Positions 20,240-51,432 of a stretch of DNA of 64,000 bases are shown piece by piece. Under the pieces are notes generated by a model, which saw nothing but the letters and a program-made list of their open reading frames with translations, had not been told where the DNA came from and did not search any database. How positions within the stretch are numbered: position 1 is the stretch's first letter; each line of letters begins with the position of its first letter. A program made the translations under genes and the position numbers. Origin of the DNA: Desulfatitalea tepidiphila (GTDB lineage Bacteria > Desulfobacterota > Desulfobacteria > Desulfobacterales > Desulfosarcinaceae); contig NZ_BCAG01000003.1 of assembly GCF_001293685.1 (NCBI RefSeq), positions 806,001 to 870,000 on the forward strand, in the 5' to 3' direction.

Positions 20240-23236
20240 TCACGATGGTTGCGCGAGCGGTTGGACACGATCCACCGTCAGGGTGGCCGTTCCCCAGTTC
20301 TGCTCGACCCGTCCCTCCAGAAGATAAGGACGGCCGTGGTCGAGCAGGTGACAGAAGCGATCATAAGCCCGGGGAAAGAAAGTGGTCTCTACCACTCCGG
20401 TATCGTCTTCGAAGGTGAGAAACTCCATGGGCTCTCCCCGCTGGGTGTGAACCACTTTGCCGGTGATCAGCCACCCGGCGAACCGGACGCGGCACCCTGT
20501 CCGCCTGATGACCTCGCGGGCGTCAACTGCGCCGGCCCGGCGCGCCGTGCTTTTGAAAAGCGTCATGGGATGCCGGTCGCAGAGAAACCCCAACACCTTA
20601 AATTCCCGGCGCAACCGCTCCATGGGGTCGTCGGGCGGCAGTTCCGGCGGCGCGAGGCGATGGCCGCCACCAAAGAGGTCGGGTGCGCCGGCGGCGGATT
20701 TGCGGCCGGCACGCCACTGGGCGAGCACCCATAGGAACTGAGCCCGGGAGAGGTCGGGAGCCAGACGGTCCAGGGCGCCACACAGGATCAAGGCCCGCGC
20801 CTCGGCGTCGTCGGGCCGGATACGCTCCCAAAAATCGCTGGGGTCCGCGAAAGGCCGCCGCTCCCGCTGCGCCACGATCCGCCGGGCCGTTTCGGCCGCA
20901 AGGCCCTTCACCGCCATCAATCCCACCCGAATGCCATCTCGATCCCCGGTCCATTGGATGCGGCTGCACTGCACGTCCGGTCTTTTAATGGTTACGCCCA
21001 GACGGCGCGCCTCGGAGACGTAGGCGAAGGTGCTGTAAAAGCCGCCCTGGTTGTTGATCACCGCGGCCATGAATTCAGCCGGAAAGTGGGTCTTGAGATA
21101 GGCGGCCTGGAACGACACCCGGGCATAGGAGGCGCTGTGGGGTTTGCAGAACGAATAGACGGAAAAACTCATCATCATGGCCCACACCGCTTCGATCTGT
21201 TGCGGCGTCAGGCCTCTTTCCCGTGCGCCCTGGGCGAAGCGCCGGCGGAAATCCTGTAATCGATGCGCCCGGTCTTTCTGGGACATCACCTTGCGCAGGC
21301 CGTCGGCTGCGGCATCGTCGAAACCGGCCAGGGCCATGGCGGCCCGGGAGACATCCTCCTGGTAGACCATGATCCCGAAGGTCTCGTCCAGCACGTCGGC
21401 GAGCAGGGGGTGGATGGGCGCCCAGGCGCCGCCGTGCAGCCGCCGGATATACTCCTGGATGAAGCGGTTGGCCGCGGGCCGGATGATGCTGGAGTGGATT
21501 ACCAGATGATCGAAGTCGCCGACGCCGGATTTTTGCTGGAGCAGGCGCGTGGCCGGGCTTTCGATGTAAAAGCACCCCATGGTGCGGCCCTGGGCCAGGG
21601 TCTCCTGGGTGGCCAGGTCGTCTTCGGGGTTCCAGTGGGTTTCATCGAAGGAGGTTCCGTTGGTTCGAACGTTATGGATAGCGTCCCGGATGACGCCCAG
21701 GCTGCGGTTGCCCAGCAGGTCGATCTTCACCAGACCGGCGGTTTCGGCGGCGTCCTTTTCCCACTGGATGATGGGTACCCCCTTGGCGGCGCGTTGGACG
21801 GGGACATAGTCCTGGATGGGGTTCGGGGTGATCACCACGCCGCCCGGATGAACCGACAGGTAGCGGGGTTTACCGAGCAGCTGCCGGGCCAGGGCCAGAA
21901 TTTGCGGCCAGGGATCATCCAGGCCCAGCTTCCGGGTTTCAGGGTGGCGTTTGAGGTCGGCCAGCAGGTCGGCTTTTTCATGGCGGTGCCAGAACCAGGG
22001 CAAGCGTCCCGTTACCCGTCCGATTTCGGCATCGGTCAGGCCGAACACCTTGGCGGTTTCCCGGATGGCCATGCGGGGTTGGAACAGGATGTGGCTGGAG
22101 ACCATGGCGGCCCGGGCGCCGTAGTGGTCGAGGACGCCCTGGATCACCCCGTCGCGTTCGTCCCAGGCAAAATCCACGTCGATGTCGGGGGCATCCTTGC
22201 GGCCTGGATTGAGAAAACGGCCGAAGTAGAGGTTGTGCTTGATCGGACAGACATTGGTGATACCCAGGCAATAGGCCACCAGCGAGGCCGCCCCCGATCC
22301 CCGGCCGCAGGTGCGCGGGCTGTGCTGGACGATGTCCCGCACGACGAGAAAATAGGCACAGAAGTTCATGCGGGCGATGGTTTGCAATTCGTGCTCCAGG
22401 CGGTCCACAACCGGTTCGGGCAGATCGCGGCCATAGCGGTGCTGCGCTCCCTGGTAAGCGGCCTCACGCAGCGCCTGATTCGCCGGGCGGCCCTGGGCAT
22501 CGTGCCAGGGCGGCATGACCAGGCCGAAATCGGGGCCCATGAATTTCAGCTGCGCGGCGATGAGGTGGGTTTGGGCCACGGCTTCGGGGCAGGCGGCAAA
22601 CCGATGGTAGTAGATCTCGGGTCCGGCGAGCCAGGCATTGGCCGGCGCCGTCTGATCGGCGGGCAGCCGTTCCAGGGTGGTGTTCTGATCGATGGCCCGC
22701 AGCAGGCGGTGGCAGCGGTGGTCGTCGGGAGAGAGAAAAAAGCTGCCCGGGGTGGCCACCAGGGGGATCTTCAGCTCCCGGGCGCGTCGCCGTAAGGGGT
22801 GGGTGGGCGCCAGGGGCGTGCGCGGCATGGCGGCGTAGACCTGCACGCCGGCTCGGTGCCAGCGGGTCAGCAGATCGGGATCGGCGGTGAGCACGATCAG
22901 CCCCCGGGCCTGCGGGGGCAGGGCGCCGGCCAGGTCGAATCCCGCGTCCATATGGCGCCGGGTGAGCAGGCGGCACAATCCGGTATACCCCTCGCCGTCG
23001 GCGACCAGGCACACCGCCCGGCGCGCTCTTTGCGGGTCGGTGATGTCGGCTCCCACGATGGGCGTCAACCCCTCCCGGCGACAGGCCTCCAGAAAGGGCC
23101 ACAGGCCGTAGAGGTTGTCCGTGTCGGTGAGGGCCAGCCGGTCGTAGCCCAGCCGCCGGGCCGCTTGGCAGAGCGTCCGGACCGAGGCGGTGCCCCACAT
23201 GAGCGAGTGGTGCGAACGGACGGTCAGCGGAATCAT
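20240..23236 (-). CDS. dnaE2: Error-prone DNA polymerase III alpha subunit, DnaE2/ImuC
   Basis: 998 residues, the usual size for DnaE2. An N-terminal PHP-like domain starts SHHSLMWGTASVRTL; several metal-binding His of active PHP domains are changed. The C-family polymerase palm shows GRGSGAASLVAYCLGI and the catalytic acids D351/D353 in PDIDVDF. Near the C-terminus an OB fold (VRFAGWLITGKVV...LTFEDDTG) is visible. DnaE2 performs translesion and mutagenic synthesis after DNA damage together with ImuB. Its ATG lies one base after the stop of imuB, the last position in the lexA operon, so LexA control is expected. Confidence 0.94.
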   Translation of the reverse strand: MIPLTVRSHHSLMWGTASVRTLCQAARRLGYDRLALTDTDNLYGLWPFLEACRREGLTPIVGADITDPQRARRAVCLVADGEGYTGLCRLLTRRHMDAGFDLAGALPPQARGLIVLTADPDLLTRWHRAGVQVYAAMPRTPLAPTHPLRRRARELKIPLVATPGSFFLSPDDHRCHRLLRAIDQNTTLERLPADQTAPANAWLAGPEIYYHRFAACPEAVAQTHLIAAQLKFMGPDFGLVMPPWHDAQGRPANQALREAAYQGAQHRYGRDLPEPVVDRLEHELQTIARMNFCAYFLVVRDIVQHSPRTCGRGSGAASLVAYCLGITNVCPIKHNLYFGRFLNPGRKDAPDIDVDFAWDERDGVIQGVLDHYGARAAMVSSHILFQPRMAIRETAKVFGLTDAEIGRVTGRLPWFWHRHEKADLLADLKRHPETRKLGLDDPWPQILALARQLLGKPRYLSVHPGGVVITPNPIQDYVPVQRAAKGVPIIQWEKDAAETAGLVKIDLLGNRSLGVIRDAIHNVRTNGTSFDETHWNPEDDLATQETLAQGRTMGCFYIESPATRLLQQKSGVGDFDHLVIHSSIIRPAANRFIQEYIRRLHGGAWAPIHPLLADVLDETFGIMVYQEDVSRAAMALAGFDDAAADGLRKVMSQKDRAHRLQDFRRRFAQGARERGLTPQQIEAVWAMMMSFSVYSFCKPHSASYARVSFQAAYLKTHFPAEFMAAVINNQGGFYSTFAYVSEARRLGVTIKRPDVQCSRIQWTGDRDGIRVGLMAVKGLAAETARRIVAQRERRPFADPSDFWERIRPDDAEARALILCGALDRLAPDLSRAQFLWVLAQWRAGRKSAAGAPDLFGGGHRLAPPELPPDDPMERLRREFKVLGFLCDRHPMTLFKSTARRAGAVDAREVIRRTGCRVRFAGWLITGKVVHTQRGEPMEFLTFEDDTGVVETTFFPRAYDRFCHLLDHGRPYLLEGRVEQNWGTATLTVDRVQPLAQPS

Positions 23237-23237
23237 T

Positions 23238-24410
23238 TCAGCCCGTCCACGCGCTGCCCATGCGCACCGCCTGGCCGCCGAAGCGGTCGCGGATCTTATC
23301 CATCGCTGCGATCAGGCGTTTTTGCCGCAGCACCGTTTGGCCCTCTTCGGCAAAGAGCGGCAGTTGGGCCGGCGGAAAGACCAGGCGGTCGCAGATCAGG
23401 CGCAGATGGCGGACCCGGGTGCGCCGGGAGACGGCCAGGTGCAGGGCGCGGCGGGCCGCGGGAAAAAGGGCCAGGTCGTTGGCCGTGGGCGGCTCCAGGC
23501 GGACCTGGCGGACGCAGCGCCGGCCGTCGCTGTAATCCGCGGCCACGGCCAGGCGACGGGCCACCCGACCCTGCTGGCGCAGGCGCCGGCCGGCCGTCGC
23601 CACCAGGGTGTGCAGCCGGCTCTCCATGACCGGTAGCGCGTGGACGTCGGTGCCGAAGGTGTGATTCAGGGCCACCCGGGGCGCCGCCTGGTCCACGGCC
23701 AACACCGGCGAGGTATCGATACCGCGCAGGGCCGCGTCGATTTCCGCGGCCGGTCGTCCCAGGGCCACGGCCAGTCGGGCGGCCCCAAGACCGACGACCT
23801 GGTGGACACGGGTCAGGTTCAATTCGCGCAGCCGGATCAGGTCCGGGCCTTCGATGCCCGGTACGAGCCAGACCGGCAGGGGCGCCAGGAAAGCCGCTTC
23901 GCCGCCCGGGGGCACGATGCAATCGCCTTGGGGTTTGACCAGCCGCGAGGCCACCTTGGCGATCAGTTTATTGGCCGCCAGGGACCAGATCGGGTCCAGC
24001 CCCAACTCCTTCCAGGCTTGGCTGTGCAGGCGCCGGGCCACGTCCACGGCCGGTCCGAACAGGCGACTGGTGCCGGTTACGTCTACGAACAGGTGGCCGT
24101 CGCGATCGCCGGGCTCGATGCGCGGGGAGTAGGGCAGGGCGTGGCGCAGCAGGTCGGCCATGGCCTGCTCATAGCGGGCCGGTTGAGGGGGGCGGATCAC
24201 CAGGTCACGGCACAGGCGTCCGGCTCGTGCCAGAGGCATGCCTTTGCGCACACCGGCCTGGTAGGCTTCTTCGCTCATGTCATAGACCACGGCCCGGGCC
24301 GCCCCTTCGGGCGCAATGATGACCGGTCTCCCTGCCAGGCGCCGGTCCAGGCGTCGTTCCACGGCCACGGCAAAATCGGCCACATTGATATGAATGATGT
24401 TTCGGTCCAT
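23238..24410 (-). CDS. imuB: ImuB-like Y-family polymerase homologue, catalytically degenerate
   Basis: 390 residues with Y-family polymerase architecture. The first catalytic strand, normally DxD, reads IHINVADFAVAVE (N9 and A11 at the two Asp positions). The second site, normally SIDEAYLDV, is altered to EPGDRDGHLFVDVTGT. It is therefore probably inactive as a polymerase and acts, as known for ImuB, as an adaptor that brings DnaE2 to the sliding clamp. A canonical clamp-binding motif QLPLF lies at 349-353, followed by a DKIRDRFGGQAVRMG tail typical of the family. It starts 27 bases after the DUF72 gene, within the lexA operon. Confidence 0.88.
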   Translation of the reverse strand: MDRNIIHINVADFAVAVERRLDRRLAGRPVIIAPEGAARAVVYDMSEEAYQAGVRKGMPLARAGRLCRDLVIRPPQPARYEQAMADLLRHALPYSPRIEPGDRDGHLFVDVTGTSRLFGPAVDVARRLHSQAWKELGLDPIWSLAANKLIAKVASRLVKPQGDCIVPPGGEAAFLAPLPVWLVPGIEGPDLIRLRELNLTRVHQVVGLGAARLAVALGRPAAEIDAALRGIDTSPVLAVDQAAPRVALNHTFGTDVHALPVMESRLHTLVATAGRRLRQQGRVARRLAVAADYSDGRRCVRQVRLEPPTANDLALFPAARRALHLAVSRRTRVRHLRLICDRLVFPPAQLPLFAEEGQTVLRQKRLIAAMDKIRDRFGGQAVRMGSAWTG

Positions 24411-35222: not shown

Positions 35223-36416
<1,194 letters not shown>

Positions 36417-44635: not shown

Positions 44636-47600
44636 ATGGAAACTTTGTACGACTTTTTTGCCAAACCGACTGATCCACGTCAGTACCGGGGAGTTCGGGT
44701 CGCTCTGGCTTCTCCTGAGCAGATTCGGCAATGGTCTCACGGGGAAATTAAAAAGCCGGAAACAATCAACTATCGGACCTTCAAGCCCGAGCGAGACGGT
44801 CTGTTTTGTGCCAAGATTTTTGGACCGACCAAGGACTATGAGTGCAACTGCGGCAAGTACAAGCGGATGAAACATCGAGGCGTGATATGTGAAAAGTGCG
44901 GCGTCGAAGTGATTCAATCCAAGGTTCGCCGGGAGCGCATGGGGCATATCGAACTGGCCACCCCTGTGTCGCATATCTGGTTTCTCAAAAGCCTGCCGAG
45001 CAAGATCGGCAACCTGCTCGATCTGACGCTTAAAAGCATGGAGAAGGTCCTCTATTTCGACTCCTATATCGTGACTGACCCCAAGGATACCGCTTTGCAG
45101 CGCGGCCAGCTTCTCACCGAAGAAAAATACAGGGAAGCGCTGGAGCTGTATGGCAGCAAGTTTGAGGCCGGTATCGGTGCCGAGGCCGTGAAGCAGTTGT
45201 TGCAGGGCATGGATCTGAATCAGCTCTACACCACTCTGCGCGAAGAGGTTCGCAGTACCAATTCGGTGGCCAAGCGCCAGAAGCTCTCCAAGCGGCTGCG
45301 AATCGTCGATGCCTTCCGAAAAAGCGGCCTCGATCCGGTCTGGATGATCATGGATGTCATTCCCGTGCTGCCGCCGGACCTGCGTCCGCTGGTCCCATTG
45401 GAAGGCGGCCGTTTCGCGACTTCGGATCTCAACGATCTCTATCGGCGTGTGATCAACCGCAACAACCGCCTGAAACGGTTGGTCGATCTGAAGGCCCCGG
45501 ACATCATCGTTCGCAACGAAAAGCGTATGCTGCAGGAGTCGGTGGATGTCCTGTTCGACAACGGCCGCCATGGCCGTGTCATAACGGGAACCAACAAACG
45601 GCCCCTTAAATCGTTGAGCGACACCCTCAAAGGAAAGCAGGGGCGATTCCGACAGAACCTGCTCGGGAAGCGTGTCGACTATTCAGGTCGTACCGTCATC
45701 ACCGTGGGCCCCAACCTGAGATTGCATCAATGCGGCTTGCCCAAGAAAATGGCCTTGGAGCTTTTCAAGCCGTTTGTTTACTACCGACTGGAACAAAAGG
45801 GGCTCGTTTCAACGGTCAAGAGCGCCAAGAAGATGGTCGAGCGCGAAGTTCCGGAAGTGTGGGATACCCTCGACGAGGTGGTGCGTGAATACCCCGTCAT
45901 GCTCAACCGCGCACCGACACTGCACCGACTCGGTATTCAGGCCTTTGAGCCGACCCTGATCGAGGGTAAGGCCATACAACTGCATCCATTGGTCTGTACC
46001 GCCTTTAACGCAGACTTTGACGGCGACCAAATGGCCGTTCACGTTCCCCTGTCGGTCGAGTCTCAAATCGAAGCGCGTGTGTTGATGCTCTCCTCCAACA
46101 ATATTCTGTCTCCGGCCAATGGGAGCCCGATCATCGTTCCCAGCCAGGACATCGTGTTGGGCACCTATTACATGACCCGCGCAATCGACGGCCGCAAGGG
46201 CGAAGGGAAGATTTTTTCAAATCCCGAGGAGGTGCGTATCTCTTACGATGCGCGCGAAGTCGACCTGCATGCCAAAATCGTGGTTCGTGTGTCGGGCAAA
46301 CGTCACGAAACGACGGTCGGAAGAGTCCTCTTTTGGGAAATCATGCCCAAGGACAACCTAATGGTGATGCGTCATCTGATGGTTGGCACCCGCGACGAAG
46401 CCGAGTCGATCCTTGGTGAGATCAACGAGGGTAAAGATTTCATCGCGTTGATTCAAACGCGGTCACACAGCGATGATCGAGAGCAGGATGGATTTATCGG
46501 TCAACTCAGACGCGATGAGTTTCAACGCATTTTCGATATCAAACAGGACATCGTGGACAAGGTCTATGGCCTCGAAGAGGGTGATGTCACCTCCGTGATT
46601 AAATGCGGGGACGGTTTTCACATCTTTCAGATAGTCGAAAAGCGCCAGGAAATGCCGTTCGAAGCCGTCAACAAGGCTATGGACAAAGGGGCTCTGCGTG
46701 ATCTGGTGGACTTTGCCTACCGTAACCTCGGGCCCAAAGCGACGGTCATCTTGTCTGACCGCATCAAGGACACGGGGTACAAATATTCGACCAAGGGCGG
46801 GCTCTCCATTTCCATCGATGACATGATCATCCCGGAAGCCAAGTGGGAGATCCTCAAGCAGGCCGAACAGCAGGTCACCGAAATTGGTCGTCAATACACC
46901 GAAGGTCTCATAACCCAGGGCGAGAAGTACAACAAGGTCGTCGATATCTGGGCCAAAGCGACCGACGATGTGGCCAACGAGATGATGGAATCCATGAAAA
47001 ATGCGCCCGTCTATGATGAGAGGGGCAAGCCTGTTCTAGATGAAGACGGCAAGCCGATAATCGCCGAGAGCCTGAACCCGATTTATATGATGGCGGATTC
47101 GGGTGCCCGCGGCAGTAAGGACCAGATGCGGCAGCTGGCCGGTATGCGCGGTTTGATGGCCAAGCCTTCGGGTGAAATCATCGAAACACCGATTCAGGCC
47201 AACTTCCGAGAGGGATTGTCGGTGCTGCAGTACTTCATCTCAACCCACGGTGCCCGTAAAGGTTTGGCCGACACAGCATTAAAGACCGCCAACTCGGGAT
47301 ATCTGACTCGCCGTTTGGCCGATGTGGCCCAGGACGCAACCATCACCGAACCCGATTGCGGTACGATGATGGGAGTGGAAGTCGAGCCGCTCATGGAAGG
47401 TGGTGAGGTGATCCAGCGTCTTGGAGAGCGCATTTTAGGGCGCGTTACCGTTGAAGACATACTCGATCCCTTTACCGATGAAGTGTTGATTCCGGCCAAC
47501 CATGAGATTGACGAGCGTGCGGTCAAAATTATCGAGGAGGCTGGCATCACGCGTGCCAAGATTCGGAGCGTGCTGACCTGTCAGACCAAATTCGGCGTTT

Positions 47601-49054
47601 GTGCCGCCTGTTATGGCCGTGATCTCGCCCATGGAAAGCGGGTGGAAATCGGACAATCCATCGGTATCCTCGCTGCGCAGTCCATCGGCGAGCCGGGTAC
47701 CCAGTTGACCATGCGTACATTCCACATCGGTGGTACGGCCAGTCGGCGGGTCGAGCAGGCCGACATCCGGGCGCGTACGGCCGGTAACATCAAATATCTG
47801 GACCTGAACATCGTCCAAAATGCCGATGGCCACAATGTGGTCATGAACCGGCGTGGTGGCGAGTGCGCCATTTTGGGCAAAGCCGGTCGTGAGCGTGAAC
47901 GTTTTCCGGTCATCTACGGCGCCCATATCCTGGTCAAAGACGGCGAAGCAGTCGAACCTGGCCAGTTGCTGGCTTCGTGGGACCCGTTTACCACGCCGAT
48001 CATCACCGAGGTGGCCGGGACGGTCAAATTCGGTGACCTGGTGCCGGGCAAAACCATGCAGGAGAAGGTGGATCCCGTGACCGGCAAATCGAGCCGCACG
48101 GTCATCGAATCCAAGACCGGTGAGGAGCGCCCGCGCATCTCGATCAAGGGCGAGGACGGCAAAACCGCCAAATTGAAAGGCGGCAGCGGCATGGCGCGAT
48201 ACATACTCCCGGTGGACGCCATTCTGATGATCGAAGAGGGCGATGAGGTCAAGGCCGGAGACGTGGTTGCCAAGCTGCCGCGGGCCACGACCAAAACCAA
48301 GGACATCACCGGTGGTCTACCGAGGGTCGCCGAGCTTTTCGAGGTGCGAAAGCCCAAAGAAATCGCGGTGCTCAGCGAGATCGAAGGTTACGTCAGCATT
48401 GCCAAATCCACCAAAAAAGGAAAGCAGAAGGTAACGATTTCACCGGTGGACGTGGGGGACAAGAAGGAATATCTGATTCCCCGCGGCAAACATATCAACG
48501 TATACGAAGGTGATTATGTAAAAGCAGGTGAGGCACTCGTCGGGGGGTCCGCAATCCCTCAGGACATCCTGAGAATCAAGGGCGAAGTTGCCCTGGCCCG
48601 TTATCTGGTGGACGAGGTACAAGAGGTTTATCGTCTCCAGGGTGTCCGTATCAACGACAAGCACATCGAGGTGATCGTGCGCCAGATGATGCGCCGGGTT
48701 AAGGTCATCGATGTGGGCGACACCGATTTTATCGTGGAAGAGCAGGTGGACCGAACCGTTTTCGACGACGCCAATAAGGCGGTGATCGAACAGGGCGGCA
48801 AGCCCGCTACTGCCGAACCCTTGATCCTAGGCATCACTAAGGCGTCGTTGAGTACCGACAGCTTTATATCGGCAGCGTCATTCCAGGAGACGACGAAGGT
48901 GCTTACGGACGCATCGATCGCCGGCACGGTGGATTATTTGCGCGGTTTGAAGGAGAACGTCATTATGGGGCGCTTGATTCCGGCGGGTACAGGCCTTCTG
49001 GATTACCTGGGGCTGGAGGTCCAGCAAAGCGAAATGGCTCTGGAGCGTTCATAA
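44636..49054 (+). CDS. rpoC: RNA polymerase beta prime subunit with a parvulin-like inserted domain
   Basis: 1472 residues. Zinc site 1 (C70, C72, C85, C88), catalytic NADFDGDQM with D460/D462/D464, and the second zinc cluster ([17 protein letters not shown]) are intact. The catalytic core is therefore normal. Between MPK (570-572) and [10 protein letters not shown] (673-682), where E. coli reads straight through, about 97 extra residues are inserted. They read like a PpiC/parvulin isomerase: [47 protein letters not shown]. The insert ends before the secondary-channel rim helices ([13 protein letters not shown] onwards). The frame is continuous throughout, so it is part of the protein. Confidence 0.97.
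46355..46648 (+). other. Inserted parvulin (PpiC-type PPIase)-like domain within rpoC
   Basis: Residues about 574-671 of RpoC. Matched to PpiC/SurA/PrsA parvulins by eye: [17 protein letters not shown] resembles the 'ASHILVKTEEEAEAIL' start; EGKDFIALI resembles 'AGEDFAELA'; DGFIGQL resembles 'GGDLGWF'; [14 protein letters not shown] resembles 'AFALKPGEISDPVK'; [11 protein letters not shown] resembles 'GYHIIKVLDR'. The two conserved active-site His positions are filled by H580 and H662. Whether it isomerises prolines or only uses the fold for binding cannot be told. Confidence 0.75.

Positions 49055-50238: not shown

Positions 50239-51432
<1,194 letters not shown>

Follow-up and report, generated by a model that had tools for sequence, protein, structure and literature searches.

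Introduction

Few machines are as strongly conserved as the core of RNA polymerase, and the insertions into its beta prime subunit have been described as mostly of one fold class, a 2024 survey giving in its main text seven beta prime insertion sites that hold mostly HABAS domains (PMC11515920). Neither a parvulin- or isomerase-type fold nor Desulfo- taxa are mentioned in that main text, in keeping with the statement, in a preliminary description of the locus studied here, that the known beta prime insertions are usually other folds; a 2026 survey devoted to domain insertions is likewise silent on parvulin and isomerase folds in its main text (PMC13114784). The Lane nomenclature of the insertions is given in PMC2939025, and of the insertions relevant here, the accessible portion of PMC8655204 mentions only those of the trigger loop and beta In4. 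Isomerase-linked folds and activities are found near the secondary channel of the enzyme in separate, exchangeable factors: according to the accessible text of PMC7461557, the C-terminal domains of GreA and GreB are FKBP-like and DksA has a weak prolyl-isomerase activity.

The window analysed here is a 64,000-nucleotide stretch of the genome of Desulfatitalea tepidiphila (contig NZ_BCAG01000003.1, positions 806,001 to 870,000 of the forward strand), in which the rpoC gene encodes a beta prime subunit with a domain of parvulin fold set into its pore domain. Like beta prime i2, beta prime i6/SI3 and the HABAS, BEAN and sLC domains, this insert is an in-frame domain of the core that belongs to one lineage and is inherited through RpoC; unlike these, it has the parvulin fold, and unlike GreA/GreB and DksA, it is a covalent part of beta prime that coexists with those factors. 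No description of a parvulin domain in RpoC was present among the open-access titles and abstract beginnings listed, and an earlier mention in Lane and Darst 2010 or in Iyer et al. 2004 is conceivable. The insertion is apparently undescribed so far, its novelty being provisional, and Pfam-based databases would display the parvulin-in-RpoC architecture automatically.

Results

The rpoC gene of the window is a single intact open reading frame, open throughout, and the features considered in the text are as follows.

44636-49054, plus strand: rpoC, RNA polymerase beta prime, intact, 1472 aa (NCBIfam TIGR02386, 1766 bits)
46100-46354, plus strand: first half of the pore domain (RNA_pol_Rpb1_3, PF04983), residues 489-573 (Pfam)
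46355-46648, plus strand: insert of parvulin fold, residues 574-671 (Pfam, phmmer, profile search, AlphaFold model, PDB fold match)
46373-46375, plus strand: His580, first conserved histidine of the parvulin site (His in 81 of 100 inserts)
46469-46471, plus strand: Ser612, the catalytic Cys/Asp position (S52 A15 G11 D8 E6 K3 N2 H1 L1 C1 of 100)
46517-46534, plus strand: Glu628-Phe629 ... Phe633, groove and insert-specific motif EFxRIF (residue counts, inserts versus stand-alone parvulins)
46619-46621, plus strand: His662, second conserved histidine (His in 80 of 100 inserts)
46649-46909, plus strand: beta prime core resuming, residues 672-758 (cyanobacterial RpoC2 models start at 672-678)
46910-47209, plus strand: funnel/rim-helix region (RNA_pol_Rpb1_4), residues 759-858 (Pfam)
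47750-48283, plus strand: segment within the trigger loop (SI3/beta prime i6 type), residues 1039-1216 (trigger-loop motifs at 1026 and 1217)

The preliminary description had placed an extra block at residues 574-671 of an otherwise standard beta prime, and this was borne out: translation of positions 46355-46648 yielded 98 residues in an unbroken frame, in which the parvulin motifs quoted earlier are present. Since the sequence at the same site is continuous in the outgroup RpoC L142, where it reads 'EIIPEEIPF' without interruption, the extra block is an insertion. The PF04983 match was split into two stretches, the best of which covered residues 489-573 (profile positions 1-81 of 162), and the insert thus interrupts the pore domain, with RNA_pol_Rpb1_4 beginning only at residue 759, nearly 90 residues later. 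The earlier placement of the block before the rim helices therefore stands, but 'just before' does not. The cyanobacterial gamma-subunit (RpoC1) models of NCBIfam aligned up to residue 556, with about 60 further model positions left unaligned; by these model boundaries, the insert is close to the point at which cyanobacterial beta prime is split, a region that tolerates a break of the chain. In E. coli numbering, we take the site to lie around K585-P588, on the upstream side of the beta prime ppGpp site-1 residues K615/D622/Y626, and we assign it provisionally to the bD4/uD3 boundary by sequence comparison rather than by the alignment of the 2024 survey. The seven sites named in the main text of that survey do not seem to include it, the nearest of them being mid beta prime-bD4, just upstream (PMC11515920). 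The G+C content of the insert (0.497, compared to 0.557 for rpoC) is read as a sign of faster change and not of recent transfer, because orthologues are spread over the order.

Elsewhere in the window, the two tuf (EF-Tu) genes at 35223-36416 and 50239-51432 show no difference over the 1194 bases compared, a sign of gene conversion. On the minus strand at 20243-24410, Pfam matches identified a DnaE-type polymerase (998 aa) adjoining an ImuB/Y-family polymerase (390 aa), an arrangement like that of the SOS mutagenesis cassette imuB-dnaE2.

The assignment of the block to the parvulins had been proposed together with ways of checking it, among them rotamase profiles and an AlphaFold model with fold comparison, and both of these bore it out. 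The full-length RpoC matched PF00639 (Rotamase) with an E value of 3.3e-7 and 31.6 bits, above the curated cut-off of 21.7; the insert alone matched PF00639 (E 4.2e-9) and PF13616 (E 1.3e-6), and PF13145 fell below its cut-off in the same Pfam profile search. Among 100 homologous inserts, PF00639 was matched at E<=0.01 by 94 and missed by six. A phmmer search of the insert against the PDB returned parvulins (best E 8.4e-6), and a profile built from the 100 inserts matched PrsA with an E value of 2.6e-15. Modelled with AlphaFold at high confidence (pLDDT 93.9, pTM 0.84), the insert was compared with PDB structures, the leading match being PrsA (4wo7; E 3.5e-7, TM 0.81). Altogether 80 PDB matches were obtained at E<=0.001, and the best 50 of these 80 were parvulin-type, as judged by title except for 9a7d and 5ez1. 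These two structures, 9a7d being YrvJ-YacD, we take to be parvulin-type. By fold and by homology, the insert belongs to the parvulin family. A HABAS, BEAN or sLC fold was not found, the Pfam matches above cut-off and the best 50 of the 80 PDB matches being of parvulin type, and a chance or low-complexity match is ruled out by the Pfam matches, the profile search with the inserts, the AlphaFold model and the PDB fold matches taken together. In a context model of RpoC residues 345-930 (586 residues), which was poor overall (pLDDT 67.9, pTM 0.59), the blocks covering the pore region and the insert had pLDDT values of 85-96 and those around both junctions had means of 86-92, so that the insert is predicted to be joined to the pore domain by ordered linkers.

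To the order of the window (Desulfobacterales, by the NCBI placement of Desulfatitalea) belong 175 of the genomes searched (G000-G174). The insert was found in 158, or 158 of the 163 in which the rpoC site is readable, a count that includes G064 and G158 (match in two pieces, with a broken frame in G158), G102 (cut by a contig end) and G111 (a stop). The frame break inside the insert of G158:C16 and the TAG in the matched stretch of G111:C288 may each be a real change or a sequencing error. Five genomes lack the insert and have an intact rpoC (G034, G047, G051, G070 and G112), and twelve have no readable site (G007, G008, G030, G036, G042, G059, G094, G095, G117, G147, G156 and G164); when nine of these twelve were searched again with the full RpoC, eight gave no match and G036 gave a downstream fragment only. 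Outside the order, the insert was absent from all 35 RpoCs read (20 + 15). When 296 genomes of the phylum were searched, the 283 from outside the order gave, among the matches listed, no RpoC-sized frame spanning the whole insert. A match touched the end of the insert in G232 and G302, and their RpoCs (L192 and L199) were read and found to lack it; the matches reaching into the insert in G220, G179 and G308, also outside the order, are by their frame lengths (304-337 aa) evidently stand-alone parvulins. A motif scan of 84,980 species genomes, demanding an exact motif that most insert members escape, yielded 29 loci with titles naming Desulfobacteraceae, Desulfobacterales, Desulfatitalea, Deltaproteobacteria or Proteobacteria. 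The extra domain is thus distributed as expected of a lineage-specific insertion: it lies in frame within the shared core of one lineage and is missing at the same site in outgroups. Its length varies from 94 to 125 aa. As regards possible sources, the predicted viral structures collected in BFVD contained no match at E<=0.001, and the search for a plasmid source gave one weak match, to a Rhizobium peptidylprolyl isomerase (E 4e-6).

Gain and loss were read from a FastTree tree of 130 RpoC cores from which the insert columns had been removed. Within the order, G034, which lacks the insert, branched off first, and the remaining four genomes without it were nested among insert-bearers; four changes suffice to explain this pattern, and the well-supported branches require at least three. 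The tree supports one gain and about three losses, the simplest reading being that the gain came after the G034 lineage had split off, in which case G034 probably never had the insert. The clearest loss is that of G070, which carries a clean in-frame deletion, 93 codons long, that leaves both flanks in place, and whose same-genus relatives G052, G069, G109 and G141 have the insert. At the other nested lacking sites there are 23-24 residues where most outgroups show 19, the form that is also present in G034, and these longer stretches might be scars of loss. Another extra stretch, of about 13-14 residues, occupies the site of the insert in three of the 35 outgroup RpoCs (L154, L199 and L206). 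The RpoCs of G262, G368 and G310 (L196, L197 and L198, respectively) lie in frames of 1622-1649 aa that lack the parvulin insert, and they seem to hold other extra sequence.

Residues of the active site and groove were counted in 100 of the 106 available inserts, omitting L003 (identical to the window), L077, L080, L098, L105 and L107. The two histidines named in the preliminary description, His580 and His662, are both present in the copy of the window at the places given for them, His580 being in our assumption the equivalent of Pin1 His59. Both histidines are present in 75 of the 100 inserts, one in 11 and neither in 14. At residue 612, which we take to be the position of the catalytic Cys113 of Pin1, the window has serine in place of Cys or Asp; these two residues occur there in nine of the 100 inserts, and in combination with both histidines in six. 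For comparison, the stand-alone parvulins of related genomes, represented by 30 loci from a longer match list that lean to canonical ones, have C14 G10 D5 A1 at this position, i.e., Cys or Asp in 19 of 30, and since 11 of the 30 lack them too, these residues are not a strict mark of the family. What had been called a folding-enzyme domain is upheld as to its fold, while its being an active enzyme is weakened by Ser612, by the scarcity of Cys/Asp and by the lack of at least one histidine in 25 of the 100 inserts.

The groove is conserved in a form peculiar to the inserts. In 97 of 100 inserts the equivalent of Phe134 (F633) is an aromatic residue; the groove Met position, Met in 27 of 30 stand-alones, is Phe (F629) in 81 of 100. 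F664 is found in 103 of 105 inserts, compared to Ile in 30 of 30 stand-alones; E628 is found in 90 of 105, where K7 Q6 S4 A3 T3 occur among the 30 stand-alones, and the insert-specific D614 in 73 of 105. Conservation around the groove and in the fold core comprises S610, G619, G622, E628, F629, F633 and F664. In a quick tree of 98 columns, which resolves little on the origin from a particular stand-alone parvulin type, the inserts formed one clade apart from the 30 stand-alone parvulins (SH-aLRT 99). A coupled loss of both histidines, as the counts of 75, 14 and 11 might suggest, is not claimed: correction for kinship left nine independent pairs, on average 2.6 differing in the same way, 0.1 in the other way and 6.3 showing no difference (median p 0.25). 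A coupling of H580 with D614 was likewise not significant after kinship correction (median p 0.25).

The insert is under purifying selection and is far less constrained than the rest of RpoC. Its median dN/dS was 0.148 in the 17 usable of 19 close pairs (in the other two the dS of the insert could not be used, and dS values above 1, of which there were several, are unreliable), about four times that of the neighbouring core (0.038, 19 pairs); the SI3 trigger-loop insertion, a segment named by position only that served as the yardstick, gave 0.047 (18 pairs). Across the 73 longer loci, the insert had a mean pairwise identity of 0.30 and SI3 one of 0.63, while the four other regions measured lay at 0.66-0.80. 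Three pairs that lack both histidines (L040/L081, 0.070; L045/L083, 0.200; L044/L088, 0.118) are as constrained as the other pairs (0.059-0.262), indicating that selection on the insert does not rest on catalysis alone. In genus g29, that of G070 (L017, L037 and L049; genomes of 2.1-2.9 Mb), the dN/dS of the core was raised to 0.16-0.25 in three pairs, and because the core is affected too, the loss of the insert in G070 may reflect generally relaxed selection.

Discussion

The insert shares with the parvulins PrsA, SurA, PpiD and PpiC its fold, its sequence homology, the hydrophobic groove and, in most members, both histidines. It differs from them in being housed in a polymerase subunit, in having mostly Ser, Ala or Gly at the Cys/Asp position, in having Phe for the groove Met together with SxDK and EFxRIF motifs, and in carrying about six extra residues after EFxRIF. 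We give roughly an even chance to the reading that a single parvulin-type insertion near the base of the order has become a module of the pore domain that docks peptides, with weak catalysis or none. The domain would have been inserted once into a pore-domain loop of beta prime close to the cyanobacterial split point, and would work as a fixed, rigid docking module that displays an outward-facing proline- or peptide-binding groove at the pore-domain surface, on the secondary-channel side of the enzyme. The groove would hold a proline-containing segment of a partner, which might be a factor peculiar to the lineage or else a mobile part of the polymerase itself. Prolyl isomerisation would be weak or absent in most members, because Cys/Asp has given way to Ser, Ala or Gly and both histidines are gone in several lineages. 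Judged by its residues, the insert may thus bind a partner rather than fold proteins; the presence of both histidines in three quarters of the inserts counts against a purely binding role, since binding alone does not require them.

The same histidines, in the copy of the window as elsewhere, and the retained hydrophobic groove speak for a working prolyl isomerase within RNA polymerase, which would act either in cis, on one of the enzyme's own prolines, or in trans, its targets then being sigma, Gre/DksA-type factors, NusG or a nearby nascent protein. Glycine at the Cys/Asp position of ten of the 30 stand-alone parvulins may temper the objection from the scarcity of Cys/Asp in the inserts. GreA/GreB and DksA offer a precedent at the secondary channel, and the intact histidine pair of the window together with the weak activity reported for DksA in the accessible text of PMC7461557 leaves this explanation with real weight. 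Nevertheless, the full catalytic set is rare and the histidine-less pairs are no less constrained, and we regard an active isomerase as unlikely. A core with a working isomerase switch that flips a proline of the polymerase or of a secondary-channel factor, tuning pausing, backtracking or factor exchange, is in our estimate quite improbable. The low identity, the raised dN/dS and the five absences point to loose constraint, which would be explained as well by a mere spacer that stabilises or pads the pore-domain surface and whose parvulin ancestry is incidental; fast divergence, variable length and losses from an intact RpoC all fit this explanation. The dN/dS of 0.15, the conserved residues of the groove and fold core, and retention in nearly all readable genomes of the order suggest more than padding, and we hold the spacer to be a doubtful though serious candidate.

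A shield of the Si3 type has in its favour the location in the pore domain and the precedent in the accessible text of PMC10802570. According to that text, however, the Cyanobacteria are without Gre factors, whereas GreA_N was found here in all 30 chosen genomes (25 with the insert and five without) and a DksA-type finger (zf-dskA_traR) in 29 of them, the exception being the insert-bearer G088. Since the insert occurs side by side with GreA and the DksA-type finger, it is not a replacement of these factors, a role that can be dismissed, and a shielding function appears very improbable. As for an artefact, a misassembly or a chimeric gene, many of the relatives are metagenome bins and the insert is lower in G+C than rpoC as a whole; its occurrence in 158 genomes, single-contig ones included, and under purifying selection leaves next to no room for such an origin, and an assembly artefact is refuted by the survey of the order.

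The peptide-docking reading aside, the insertion is real, a known fold in an uncommon position of RNA polymerase that has spread across one order. The pore domain of beta prime has here taken up a folding-enzyme fold and retained it in most of the order, with its natural losses serving as controls, and the insert joins a recurring theme of isomerase-like folds near the secondary channel.
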